This document shows positions 6,826 through 60,721 of a stretch of 64,000 bases of DNA, piece by piece. Every line of letters starts with the position of its first letter. Position 1 is the first letter of the stretch. Source of the stretch: Deltaproteobacteria bacterium (GTDB lineage: Bacteria; Myxococcota_A; UBA796; GCA-2862545). Location: positions 1 to 64,000 of the forward strand of contig JAFGVK010000036.1 in the NCBI GenBank assembly GCA_016938035.1, in the 5' to 3' direction. The notes under the pieces were generated by a model, which was not told the DNA's origin, ran no database searches, and was given only the letters and a program-made list of their open reading frames with translations. Made by a program: the position numbers and the translations under genes.

Positions 6826-7476
6826 AGCACGGTGAGAGGGCTCGTCGCCGCGTGGTGGCAGCCAGGCGAGGCGCGAGCCGGTCCAGGTACTTGCCGAGGC
6901 CCTCGGCGTGGAGGCTGAGGTGCGCTACGTGCCGAGGGGGCGGCGGCTGCCAGCCCCGGTCAGGAGGTCCGGCCCATGCGGCCGTCTCCTGCCTAGGATA
7001 GTCGTTGAGTCAATCGGTGGATCCTCCGCTATGGACGACATCGCGATCATCGTGACCGATCGGCTCGGGCTCAACAGGACCTCGCAGCCCCGCCACGGCC
7101 GTAGCGCGTCGGCCGGGGGCTAACACGAACGAACCAGCCTTGTCGGCGCATGCCACGCTCTCCGCGCCGGGCGCTGGGTCATGGCGAGCCTCGGACAAGC
7201 GGGGGAGCCCACGAATTTGTGGCCTCGGACGGAATTTCCTGTCGCTGCAACGCGAGAGGAACCGCTGCGTGCAACCCGACCCGCGCGACCGCGTCGACGC
7301 GCTCGTCCCAGCTCCCGCCCCTGCCTGACGTGGTGCCGACGATCTCCTGTCCAAGGGCGAGACGATGCCGCAGCGCGTCGCGCGCCTCCCTCCCGCCCTG
7401 GCGAGGCCCGATCGCGGACCAGCATCGACGCGCCCTGTGTGGCGGTCGGCTGGAACGCGACCTCAGCCCGCGTCGA
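6826..7476. other. Intergenic region with dispersed element
   Basis: There is no supported gene here. The middle part (6958-7244) is a copy of the 292-bp dispersed element described separately. The flanks (6826-6957 and 7245-7476) show nothing recognisable. Confidence 0.6.
6958..7244 (+). repeat. Dispersed 292-bp element, copy 1 (uninterrupted)
   Basis: This is one of three copies; the others are at 33928-34366 and, inverted, at 60063-60354. Shared blocks include a 23-bp stretch (7160-7182) identical to the complement of 60125-60147. The ends are imperfect inverted repeats: CAGGAGGTCCGGCC on the left and, read inward from the right, ACAGGAAATTCCGTCC. The site GATCATCGTGACCGATC at about 7053-7069 is intact here. 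The copy at 34 kb is split at this same site by a smaller element. No frame is preserved among the copies, so the element is probably non-coding. No target duplication is evident for this copy. Confidence 0.75.
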
Positions 7477-32033: not shown

Positions 32034-32210
32034 TGGAGCTCCTGGGGGGCAGGGCGTCCCCGAGGTTAGAGAGAGGGATCACGCCCGCGGGCCTGTCCGC
32101 GGCAGACGCTGTGCCCCTTGTCGCCGGGATCGTAGATCATTTGTTCCGCTCGGTTGGCCGCAATCCCTGTGAGTCGTGCTACCGTCGGGAGACCTTTGGG
32201 GGGTGAGCCG

Positions 32211-33872
32211 ATGCAGACAGGGCTCAAGTCATCGACCTACCGCGCGCAGATCAGCCGCACCTTTGACGTGGAGGCCTGCCTGGGCCGGGGTGGATTTGGC
32301 GAGGTCTACCTGGCCAGGATGACCAGCCCCGGGGGCCTCTCGACCAGGGTGGCGCTCAAGGTGCTTCACGCCGGGCTAGACCACGGCCTGCAGGCGGTGC
32401 AGCGCCTCCGCGACGAGGGCAGGGTGCTGGCCTCGCTGGAGCACCCCGTCATACTCCAGGTGCGCGATGTCTGCGTTCTGGACGGGAAGATCGCGCTGGT
32501 CACCGAGTACGTGGAGGGGGAGGACCTCTCCACTGTGTTCCGGGCGGAGGGCGCTATCGGTCCCAGGGCGCTGGTACAGGTGGTGGCGCAGGTGGCCGCG
32601 GCGCTGGGGGAGGCGGCGGCTGCCCGCGGCCCCGGCGGAGAGCCGCTCCGGCTGGTCCACCGAGACATCAAGCCCTCCAACATCCGCCTGGGGCAGCACG
32701 GGCAGGTGAAGCTGCTGGACTTTGGCATCGCCCGCTCCGACGAGATGGAGCGTGAGGCGCGCACCGCCACCCACATGGTGATCGGGACCATGGGGTACAT
32801 GGCCCCTGAGCGCTTCCTGGACGGGAGGCCCCACCCTGCGAGCGACGTGTTCGCGCTAGGGGTGTGCTTGTGGGAGGGGCTGGCTGGCAGATCGCCGCTC
32901 AAGGCCATGGGTGCGCAGGCCTTCACCGGGCTCGCCTACTCTCCAGAGCGCTACGGCGCCTGGCTCCAGCCCGCCCTCGCGGCGCTCGGCAGGACCTGGG
33001 ACCGAGAGCTGGTCGCCGTGATCGGCGAGTGTCTGCGCTATGAGCCTGAGGACAGGCCCTCAGCGGATGAGCTCGCCCGCAGGCTGGAGCTGCTGGGCGA
33101 CGAGCTAGCGGGGCCGACCCTCGCGGCCTGGGCGCGAGCGCGGAGCTGGTCCGGCCCCCCCACAGAGGACGGTCCCTGGGTCGGGCTCTCGTTCACCGAG
33201 GGCACGCTGAGCCTCGGTGCCTCCGCGCCCGCGACACGGGGCCGCGGGCTGCTGCGCTGGGGACTGGCCCTCCTCACGGTGGGGGGGCTGGGCGGGGTGA
33301 TCGGGGTCCTCGCGGTGGGAGTCCTAGGGACCGCCGCGGTGGGGGGAGCCCTCTACGCGGGGGATCTGGCGCCCGCGCGGGCGCCCGCGATCGTTCCCGC
33401 GCCGGTGCCCGCGCCTCGTGGGCAGGCTGCCCCCCCTGTGGAGCTCCCGGTGTCGGGCGTGGCCTCTGCGGAGCCCGCTGGCTCGGCCTCTGCCCTCCTG
33501 CCTGCTGCCTCCCCCGGAGCCGAGCGGGCGGGCGATCGCGAGGGCAGCGGTGCCCCGACGGGCGAGGCCTTGTCCGGTTCGGCGCCCGACGTCCACCAGG
33601 AACAGGACCCTCACCAGGCGCGGGTCCCGTCGCAGGACCGGGGTAGCGCACAGTCCGGGCGGATGAGCCGCTTTTCGGTCGCCGGCCCTGTCCCCGCCCG
33701 CCTCCAGCGGGGGGAGGGCCGATGGGAACAGGGGCTGGTCCCGCCCGGCGTGTACCAGATCCTCGCTGACTTCGGGAGCGGCGAGCAGCTCGCGGGTGAG
33801 ATCCGCTGCGAGCCTGCCAGTCCCTGCGCGGTGCGCTGCAACCCGCTGCTGATGGGGTGCGGGGCCCCCTAG
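32211..33872 (+). CDS. Transmembrane Ser/Thr protein kinase
   Basis: This 553-aa protein has an intact kinase domain: LGRGGFGEVYLA (24-35), Lys50, HRDIKPSN (150-157) with Asp152, DFG (170-172), and GTMGYMAPE. A Gly/Ala-rich membrane segment lies near 345-375. It is followed by a long Pro/Ala-rich extracytoplasmic linker and a small C-terminal domain with three Cys residues, which may bind a periplasmic signal. ATG 32211 follows GGGTGAG. It appears monocistronic; the 292-bp element begins 55 nt after the stop. Confidence 0.93.
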   Translation: MQTGLKSSTYRAQISRTFDVEACLGRGGFGEVYLARMTSPGGLSTRVALKVLHAGLDHGLQAVQRLRDEGRVLASLEHPVILQVRDVCVLDGKIALVTEYVEGEDLSTVFRAEGAIGPRALVQVVAQVAAALGEAAAARGPGGEPLRLVHRDIKPSNIRLGQHGQVKLLDFGIARSDEMEREARTATHMVIGTMGYMAPERFLDGRPHPASDVFALGVCLWEGLAGRSPLKAMGAQAFTGLAYSPERYGAWLQPALAALGRTWDRELVAVIGECLRYEPEDRPSADELARRLELLGDELAGPTLAAWARARSWSGPPTEDGPWVGLSFTEGTLSLGASAPATRGRGLLRWGLALLTVGGLGGVIGVLAVGVLGTAAVGGALYAGDLAPARAPAIVPAPVPAPRGQAAPPVELPVSGVASAEPAGSASALLPAASPGAERAGDREGSGAPTGEALSGSAPDVHQEQDPHQARVPSQDRGSAQSGRMSRFSVAGPVPARLQRGEGRWEQGLVPPGVYQILADFGSGEQLAGEIRCEPASPCAVRCNPLLMGCGAP

Positions 33873-33927: not shown

Positions 33928-34366
33928 TGACAGGAGATCCGGCCCATGCGCCCGTCCCCTGCTCACGATAGCCGTCGAATCGTACGGCGAGTCCTGTACG
34001 ATGAACAAAGCCACAATCATGAGCCACTCGTACGAACCCCCTCTGCGAGTGGCAAGGCCGCCGACGCCACGGAAGAACGCCGATGTTCGTCGCAACGCGC
34101 TACGGACGAACCAGCGTTTTGGGAGAGGCAACGCAGCGGTGGGGCTTTCTACGAGGGGCTCAATCATCGTGAGCGATCGGCTCGGGGCCAGCAGCCCCTT
34201 GCAGCCAGCGCCACGCCCGTAGACCGTCGCGGCGTGGTGCTAGTACGAACGAACCGTCGTTATCGACGCATGCCTCGCTCTTCCCACCGGGCGCTGGGGC
34301 ATGCCGAGCCTCGGGCAAGCGGGTGGTTCCACGACATGATTTGCTCGGACCGGATCTCCTGCCTGA
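33928..34366 (+). repeat. Dispersed 292-bp element, copy 2 (split by a 143-bp insertion)
   Basis: This copy has good terminal inverted repeats: TGACAGGAGATCCGGCCC on the left and, reading inward from the right, CAGGCAGGAGATCCGGTCC. After removing the inserted 143-bp element and one copy of its 4-bp duplication, its length is 292 bp, the same as the copy at 60063-60354. Alignment to copies 1 and 3 shows that the insertion broke the conserved sequence ATCATCGTGA. No target duplication of the 292-bp element itself is clear at this site. Confidence 0.8.
34020..34162 (+). mobile_element. 143-bp MITE-like element, copy A
   Basis: The element begins TGAGCCACTCGTA and ends TACGAGGGGCTCA, an imperfect terminal inverted repeat of about 13 bp. 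It is flanked by a 4-bp direct repeat ATCA (34016-34019 and 34163-34166). The two other copies of the surrounding 292-bp element have the uninterrupted sequence ATCATCGTG at this place, which proves the ends and the duplication. It is about 90 percent identical to the copy at 60460-60603. It is too short for a transposase, so movement must depend on an enzyme encoded elsewhere. Confidence 0.9.
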
Positions 34367-55399: not shown

Positions 55400-58390
<2,991 letters not shown>

Positions 58391-58448
58391 GGCGGGGGCT
58401 TGTGGCCAGGAGCGTGCTAGGTGTAACGTCTCGCCCAGAGGTGGACAG

Positions 58449-59936
58449 GTGCTGAGTCCCGGACAACGCGTCGATCGATACGAGGTGGAGGCACTCATCG
58501 GCCAGGGCGGGCTGGCAGAGGTGTACCGGGTCCGCCATGTGGACCTGGGGAGCCTGCACGCCCTCAAGCTGCTGGTGTGGAAGCGCCAGAGCCTCGCCAA
58601 CCGCTTCGTGCTGGAGGGGCGCATCCAGGCACAGCTCCGCCACCCCAACGTGGTGACGGTCACCGATCTGATCCGCCACGACGGTCAGTTCGGGCTGCTG
58701 ATGGAGTACGTCGATCACCTCACCCTCGAGCAGTACCTCGCGCAGCGGGGCTCGCTCCCCCTCGACGAGGCGCTGGAGCTCATGGCGCCCATCCTCGCGG
58801 GGGTGGTGGCGGCGCACGACGTGGGGGTGCTGCACCGGGACCTCAAGCCCTCCAACATCCTCCTCGCCAAGGTGCCGCGCGGCCTGATCCCCAAGGTGAC
58901 GGACTTCGGCATCGCCAAGGTCATCCGCGATGACCTCCAGTCCTCCGGGACCGACGCGGGGGTGGCGATGGGGACCCCTGGCTACCTCGCTCCGGAGCAG
59001 GTGGTGGACTCCGCCGACGCGGACGCGCGCGCCGACGTGTTCGCGATGGGGGTCATCCTCTACGAGCTGCTGACGGGGCGGCGCGCCTTCGCTGATGAGA
59101 CCGGCGAGGTCGTGGTGCGGTCTACCCTGTTGCAGGAGCCACGCTCGCTGGCGGAGGTGCTCACCTCGTGCCCTGCTGGGATCGCCGCCGCGGTGGCCAA
59201 GGCGATGGCGCGGGATCGCGAGGAGCGCTTCGAGGACCTGCGCGCCTTTGCGCGCACCCTGTACGCCGACTACCCCGACCTGCTCGCGCAAGTAGAGGGG
59301 CAGCAGACCACCACCGCCCTCGCGCTAGACGCGGAGGTCCCGACCCTTGAGCCCGATCAGCTCCAGGCGGCGGAGGAGGTCCGCGGGCGCGCTGGGCTGG
59401 ACGACACCTTCGGCGAGCACCTGGAGGAGGTCGACCTCGACGACGAGGTGGAGGTCGCGCTGGTCAGCCTCCCCGAGGGCCAGGAGATGGACCCGTCCAA
59501 GGTGCTGCCCTACGCCATCGGCGGCGCGGTGCTGGTGGTGGCGGTCGCGCTGGTTGGGGTGTTCATGGGCTGGGGGGGCCTGACCACCCCCGAGTCGCTG
59601 GTGTTTGGGCACGCCGACGCGACGGTGGAGCCGATCGTCGAGCCGGTGATCGCGGCGCCGCAGCAGGTGGGGCGGCACACCTGGCGCGGGCAGCTCGGCG
59701 AGGAGCCGCTAGAGATCCGCCTGTCGGTTGGGGCCGCAGATCCCGAGGCCCTCATCTCGCTGCAGCGGGACGGGGAGATGGAGATCCACCGGGCCGCGGG
59801 GACCTGGGAGGGCGACAGGCTCACCCTGGAGGAGCCGGGCGGTATCCAGCTGGAGGGCACCCGCACCGGCCGCAGGGTGGAGGGCACCGCGGCGATAGGG
59901 GATGAGACCCCTGCTTGGTGGGCTGAGGTCGAGTAG
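58449..59936 (+). CDS. Transmembrane Ser/Thr protein kinase
   Basis: This 495-aa protein has an intact kinase domain: IGQGGLAEVYRV (17-28), Lys40, HRDLKPSN (129-136) with Asp131, DFG (152-154), and GTPGYLAPEQ. An acidic juxtamembrane part (about 310-365) and one membrane segment (about 366-390) follow. A C-terminal beta-rich periplasmic domain of about 90 residues has GQLGEEPLEIRLSV and EGTRTGRRVEGT. GTG 58449 has AGAGG upstream. It lies 58 nt after the MopE-like lipoprotein gene and may be cotranscribed with it. Confidence 0.93.
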   Translation: MLSPGQRVDRYEVEALIGQGGLAEVYRVRHVDLGSLHALKLLVWKRQSLANRFVLEGRIQAQLRHPNVVTVTDLIRHDGQFGLLMEYVDHLTLEQYLAQRGSLPLDEALELMAPILAGVVAAHDVGVLHRDLKPSNILLAKVPRGLIPKVTDFGIAKVIRDDLQSSGTDAGVAMGTPGYLAPEQVVDSADADARADVFAMGVILYELLTGRRAFADETGEVVVRSTLLQEPRSLAEVLTSCPAGIAAAVAKAMARDREERFEDLRAFARTLYADYPDLLAQVEGQQTTTALALDAEVPTLEPDQLQAAEEVRGRAGLDDTFGEHLEEVDLDDEVEVALVSLPEGQEMDPSKVLPYAIGGAVLVVAVALVGVFMGWGGLTTPESLVFGHADATVEPIVEPVIAAPQQVGRHTWRGQLGEEPLEIRLSVGAADPEALISLQRDGEMEIHRAAGTWEGDRLTLEEPGGIQLEGTRTGRRVEGTAAIGDETPAWWAEVE

Positions 59937-60062: not shown

Positions 60063-60354
60063 TGACAGGAGTTCCGGTCCGAGGCCACAACGTCGTGGAA
60101 CCACCCGCTTGGCCGAGGGCCGGAATGACCCAGCGCCCGGCGCGGAGGGCGAGGTGCGCGCCGATACCGGTGGTTTCGTTCCTGATAGCCCCCAGCCGGG
60201 GCGCTCCACGGGCGTGGCGGAGGCGGCGAAGGGCCGCTGAGCCCGCGCGATCGGCCACGATGATCACGACGTCCTCCGTAGCGCGGATCGTCCTTGCGAA
60301 GCGGCGGCTATCGTGAGCGGGGGGGCGGACGCATGGGCCGGAGGTACTGGCTGA
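60063..60354 (-). repeat. Dispersed 292-bp element, copy 3 (inverted)
   Basis: This copy is inverted with respect to the other two. One end reads TGACAGGAGTTCCGGTCC (from 60063); the other, read inward, gives TCAGCCAGTACCTCCGGCCC. A 5-bp direct repeat CGCGC (60058-60062 and 60355-60359) flanks it exactly and may be the target duplication. The conserved site for the 143-bp element is intact here (complement of about 60255-60272). The length matches copy 2 after removal of its insertion. Confidence 0.78.
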
Positions 60355-60459
60355 CGCGCCCCCCGCGGGCTCCGTCGGTCGGCCTTGACCTGGGAGCCTG
60401 CGCCCTCCCTGGTCGCCGCCGAGGCGCCCGCCGCACGGGCGCCACCGAGCCGCTCAACC

Positions 60460-60603
60460 TTGAGCCACTCGCAAGAACCCCCTTTGCGCGTGGCAAGGCC
60501 GCCGACGCTACGGGAGAACGCCGATTTTCGTCGCAACGGGCTACGGACGAACCATCGTTTTGGGAGAGGCAGCGCAGCGGTGGGACTTATTACGAGGGGC
60601 TCA
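60460..60603 (+). mobile_element. 144-bp MITE-like element, copy B
   Basis: This is the second copy of the 143-bp element, with one extra C in an internal C-run and about 15 base differences. Its ends are TGAGCCACTCG and CGAGGGGCTCA. A perfect 4-bp direct repeat ACCT flanks it (60456-60459 and 60604-60607). It lies 105 nt from the 292-bp element copy, but outside it, so the two families move independently. Confidence 0.9.
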
Positions 60604-60721
60604 ACCTTGCGCTGGGATCCTAGCGCGGCGCCGGGTCTCGGAGGACCGAGTGCGCTGGAGCATGGGGCCCATCGGGCGAACGCCAAGGGCGAGCTCGCCC
60701 GATAGGCCCCTGGTCGCCGCG

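Follow-up and report, generated by a model that had tools for sequence, protein, structure and literature searches.

The 64-kb window analysed in the present study, that is, the whole stretch of DNA, holds two copies of a 143-bp element that resembles a miniature inverted-repeat transposable element (MITE) and has no transposase gene of its own. It also holds copies of a longer repeat of ~285 bp, one of which is split by the first MITE copy and is hereafter called the host repeat. The features are as follows.

6961-7241, + strand: uninterrupted copy of the host repeat, representing an empty site (by alignment to the joined flanks of MITE copy 1)
33931-34361, + strand: host repeat of ~285 bp with ends CAGGAGATCCGG...CCGGATCTCCTG, split by MITE copy 1 (flanks joined and aligned)
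34016-34019, no strand: left target duplication of MITE copy 1, ATCA (AATCAT with the terminal T counted)
34020-34162, + strand: MITE copy 1 (L001), 143 bp (from the sequence and from DNA and profile searches of the genome)
34163-34166, no strand: right target duplication of MITE copy 1, ATCA
60066-60342, - strand: uninterrupted copy of the host repeat, representing an empty site and lying 118 bp away from MITE copy 2 (by alignment to the joined flanks)
60457-60460, no strand: left target duplication of MITE copy 2, ACCT (or AACCTT)
60461-60603, + strand: MITE copy 2 (L011), 143 bp (from the sequence and from DNA and profile searches of the genome)
60604-60607, no strand: right target duplication of MITE copy 2, ACCT

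The two window copies are identical at 130 of 143 bases, and their 13 differences are spread 4/4/5 across the three codon positions, in agreement with the original prediction, made from the sequence of this DNA, that the element is not a conserved gene. That prediction had placed copy 1 correctly at 34020-34162 and had let copy 2 begin at 60460, where the correct start is 60461; the perfect flanking repeats that it described, ATCA and ACCT, are present at copies 1 and 2 respectively. Both copies lie downstream of ORFs with a protein kinase domain (32154-33872 and 58041-59936), a proximity that is probably a coincidence.

When the flanks of copy 1 were joined, they aligned through the junction to 6961-7241 on the + strand (75% over 288 columns) and to 60342-60066 on the - strand (75% over 280 columns). 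At the junction itself the empty copies read GATCATCGTG and the filled site reads AATCAT...AATCATCG, so that the earlier claim of a larger element split by the 34-kb copy, with two uninterrupted copies elsewhere in the window, is borne out. A second filled and empty pair was found outside the window, with the MITE inserted at ATCATTCC in locus L032 and the same sequence uninterrupted in L035. The host repeat has inverted ends of its own (CAGGAG.TCCGG...CCGGA.CTCCTG) and recurs in many of the loci retrieved, with ~67-89% identity; it is possibly another, older MITE family. In two loci (L006 and L081) the MITE is inserted at the same site of the host repeat in opposite orientations, with flanks 95% alike on both sides, and similar flanks around copies of opposite orientation, these two included, suggest that target sites were reused.

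The source genome is a draft assembly, 89% complete, whose 246 contigs total 5,193,187 bases. A DNA search of it returned at least 41 good matches (40 of 95 candidates scored), to which a pattern search added further copies, and 68 distinct copies were gathered after removal of duplicates. A sequence profile was then built from the 52 copies whose ends were intact and whose aligned length was exactly 143 bp. At E<=0.001 this profile gave 78 matches in the genome, the weakest at 1e-19, which is 10 more than the 68 copies analysed; further copies, for which the original prediction had proposed a genome-wide search, are thus plentiful. Pairwise identity in the 41-copy set was 80-98% (median 88%). 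The closest pair of 143-bp copies in the wider set was 97.9% identical, and no identical pair was present among the 143-bp copies compared. Outside the source genome, the same profile found no match in 185 other genomes ranging from the same family to the same phylum, a DNA search with the MITE found none in 140 other genomes, and the exact MITE pattern found none in the wider genome contig collection, from which records near the window were possibly excluded.

The copies differ from each other largely by substitution, with 745 substitutions against 14 internal gaps in 62 of the 68 copies (L046, L035, L057, L071, L084 and L089 were dropped from the count as ragged). By one BLAST method the ratio of substitutions to gaps was 91:1 for the MITE versus 37:1 for the 285-bp host repeat. 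Selection for a constant MITE length was suspected on these grounds and is not claimed, because the contrast with the host repeat is only ~2.5-fold and rests on small gap counts.

Analysis of the flanks covered the 66 copies for which both flanks were available. An exact duplication of 4 bp was present in 26 of them and one of 5 bp in six (32/66 together); one copy had 3 bp, and none had 2 bp or 6 bp and more. Random pairing of left and right flanks gave a mean of 1.08 and a maximum of six 4-bp matches in 2000 trials, compared with the 26 observed. Flanking 4-bp repeats are thus a recurrent property of the family, as the original prediction had required. The other 34 of the 66 copies lack an exact 4-5 bp duplication, which we tentatively read as a sign of their age. 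A tandem pair of MITEs in L074:278-568 (contig C188) was also observed, in which a single AGGT between the two elements serves as the flanking repeat of both.

Among the 32 copies with an exact duplication, 28 have an A immediately outside it on the left side and 30 have a T immediately outside it on the right side. This gives a target of the form A-N4/5-T, so that the flanking repeats can equally be written as 6-7 bp around GAGCC...GGCTC. L039, in which G replaces T on both sides, favours the 6-bp reading, and L037, L074, L077 and L079 favour a 4-5 bp duplication with a preferred target. Because both readings fit, the ends of the element are uncertain by one base. In the window, the 4-bp repeats of the original prediction fit both copies, and so does a 6-bp reading (AATCAT/AACCTT) around GAGCC...GGCTC; the ends TGAGCC...GGCTCA are present as it described, and calling them exact was slightly too strong. 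In the consensus, the terminal inverted repeats are TGAGCCACTCGTA and TGAGCCCCTCGTA, matching at 12 of 13 positions.

A scan of the source genome for the MITE ends picked out a 694-bp element (G000:C1:4959-5652) that is bounded on either side by TGAGCCCCTCGTA ends. It encodes the N-terminal 50 amino acids of a transposase, these 50 codons being followed directly by a truncated MITE, and is probably a decayed copy of an IS1182-like parent. Its left end recurs at four more places in the genome (C191, C190, C80 and C146), and at C191 the IS element carrying it is cut off at the contig edge. The long ORF of the C80 element matched no Pfam family, and its NCBIfam match was at chance level only.

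With the 50-residue fragment as query, relatives were found in 5 of 185 other genomes. The longest well-matching one was a 603-residue transposase encoded in a 2,023-bp IS on contig DYKK01000230.1 of an Anaeromyxobacter metagenome assembly, which belongs to the same phylum as the source genome, most probably the Myxococcota. The two ends of this IS differ, and they correspond one to one with the two ends of the 143-bp MITE. The IS 3' end gave a 44-column alignment to the MITE left end with a score of 51 (best of 2000 shuffles, 29), and the IS 5' end aligned to the MITE right end with a score of 36 (best shuffle, 26), whereas the cross-matches to the opposite MITE ends were weaker at 30 (versus 51) and 26 (versus 36). 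These specific end-to-end matches indicate that the MITE combines the two ends of an IS of this kind, oriented opposite to the transposase gene, and they are the strongest single evidence for an IS1182-like parent.

The 603-residue protein matched the IS1182 model NF033551 at 1.4e-54 with 185.8 bits, below the curated NCBIfam cut-off of 270, so that the family name IS1182 rests on best match. The transposase domains PF13751, PF05598 and PF01609 were all found in it above their cut-offs. In the genome contig collection, a TGAG-type end (<=2 mismatches) lay 73-130 bp before the transposase match in 4 of 7 loci. L127 and L128, one from a MAG of the Myxococcota and the other from a MAG of the Phycisphaerae, carry the IS1182-like IS with the same first 45 bases and different flanks, perhaps through transfer or mis-binning. 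The IS1182-like nature of the parent goes beyond what the original prediction could give. Of the full-length transposon with the same ends that it proposed to look for, the source genome yielded a relic and the Anaeromyxobacter assembly a full relative, both without the target duplication that was to accompany it: none was visible around the 2,023-bp IS in DYKK01000230.1 or around the 694-bp relic.

Used as a query against the source genome, the full relative transposase matched four fragmentary places (C1, C191, C32 and C139:68560-68982), the last lying within a decayed transposase remnant (C139:68560-69027) on the same contig as the window and outside it. The full relative protein thus revealed no intact transposase in the draft genome, and PF13751 gave no match there. 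Since the assembly is a draft that breaks at such repeats, an intact copy of the parent may be missing from it.

Copies, inverted ends, duplications, two filled and empty pairs, IS-end matches and transposase remnants were all observed directly, and on this basis the 143-bp element is very probably a non-autonomous, gene-less MITE in which the two ends of an IS1182-like IS enclose a short filler. The label MITE-like in the original prediction is supported by the copies, the duplications and the ends of the parent IS. As judged from the sequence, the MITE would have been mobilized in trans by an IS1182-like transposase: the enzyme supplied by the parent IS would bind ends of the type TGAGCC(A/C)CTCGTA... 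and move the 143-bp segment into A-N4/5-T targets, and the 4-5 bp duplication would arise when the host repaired the staggered cut.

A reading that we regard as unlikely is that the MITE was last mobilized by another transposon with similar ends (TGAGCCTCCCGTA...), one that is still active and lies at broken contig ends in this assembly. Contig edges do carry ends of this second type (TGAGCC(C/T)CCCGTA-type; L096, C203:1-203; L097, C245:1-101; L098, C246:5980-6080), and their 95-96% similarity over 74 bp is what a multi-copy element with recent activity would show if it had been lost in assembly. In addition, a 368-bp hybrid at L035:1006-1373 pairs a MITE end with a TGAGCCTCCCGTA end within a perfect ACGT duplication, and one enzyme can therefore use both end types. 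However, the second-type element is known from its ends alone, its interior not having been recovered, and the MITE ends match the ends of the IS1182-like IS over longer stretches.

It is far less likely that the repeat is kept for an RNA or DNA structure, such as a regulatory RNA, an attenuator or a terminator, and merely looks like a MITE. The MITE consensus folds better than shuffled sequences on both strands (z of -3.2 and -4.6), but an Rfam scan of two loci gave no match up to E=1. Furthermore, covariation at the fold pairs in 52 copies was 0.084 compared with 0.085 for shuffled columns (349 of 500 shuffles as high), and the 22 pairs found by RNAalifold had a covariation term of -0.03. 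With no covariation beyond that of the shuffles, the inverted ends account for the fold, and an RNA function of the MITE was rejected on the lack of an Rfam match and the shuffle-level covariation. A palindromic repeat of the REP/BIME type moved by an IS200/IS605-like (Y1) transposase would also give many palindromic copies limited to one genome among those searched, but is highly improbable, as the MITE has target duplications together with true terminal inverted repeats of the kind seen in a DDE-type IS; IS200/IS605 elements are not known to make either.

Taking the 143-bp element as an IS1182-derived MITE, the family is probably old and now largely immobile, which we infer from the broken state of all transposase pieces found and from the divergence between copies. 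A MITE lies within 100 bp at three of the five places with the IS left end (C1, C146 and C190), and at C32 a MITE is 8 bp away from a C-terminal fragment of the transposase. The MITE might have multiplied to ~80 copies in one lineage, repeatedly hit other repeats as well as sites in or next to its parent IS, and thereby contributed to the destruction of its transposase supply, a scenario that we put forward as a rather doubtful possibility.

The family offers a clear case from the Myxococcota of a high-copy MITE with the type of parent identified, an A-N4/5-T target, and filled and empty pairs within one genome. It is useful for annotation, as assemblies break at such elements and annotators can take them for regulatory RNAs or genes, and for tracing the survival of a MITE family after the loss of its transposase. 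The papers listed on miniature inverted-repeat transposable elements and myxobacteria apparently describe no myxobacterial MITE of the IS1182-derived type.

The closest descriptions come from other hosts. MITEPye1 of Paracoccus yeei is described as a 159-bp element with no ORF, 18-bp IS1182-like terminal inverted repeats, 4-bp direct repeats and a long predicted stem-loop, present in 1-3 copies per chromosome at 96-100% identity (PMC11578231). As far as that description goes, the present MITE is likewise short and ORF-less with IS1182-like ends, 4-bp repeats and a predicted stem-loop, but differs in its ends, its host and its abundance and divergence (78 matches, and 80-98% pairwise identity in the 41-copy set, compared with 1-3 copies per chromosome). 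The ISMac2 MITEs of the archaeon Methanosarcina acetivorans, listed at 160 and 169 bp with 14 and 7 copies and assigned to an IS1182-family IS, the first with a direct repeat of 4 bp (PMC3852290), resemble the present MITE, as described, in size, in the probable type of parent and, for the first, in the 4-bp repeats. ISPse1 of Paracoccus seriniphilus is reported as an autonomous IS1182 member of 1653 bp with 16/16 inverted repeats and 4-bp direct repeats (PMC3281130); the 4-bp duplication is common to it and to 26 of the 66 MITE copies, whereas ISPse1 is a full-length IS with a transposase and the 143-bp MITE has none. The 143-bp MITE is a new family of its own, and IS1182-derived MITEs as a kind are already published in MITEPye1 and the ISMac2 MITEs.
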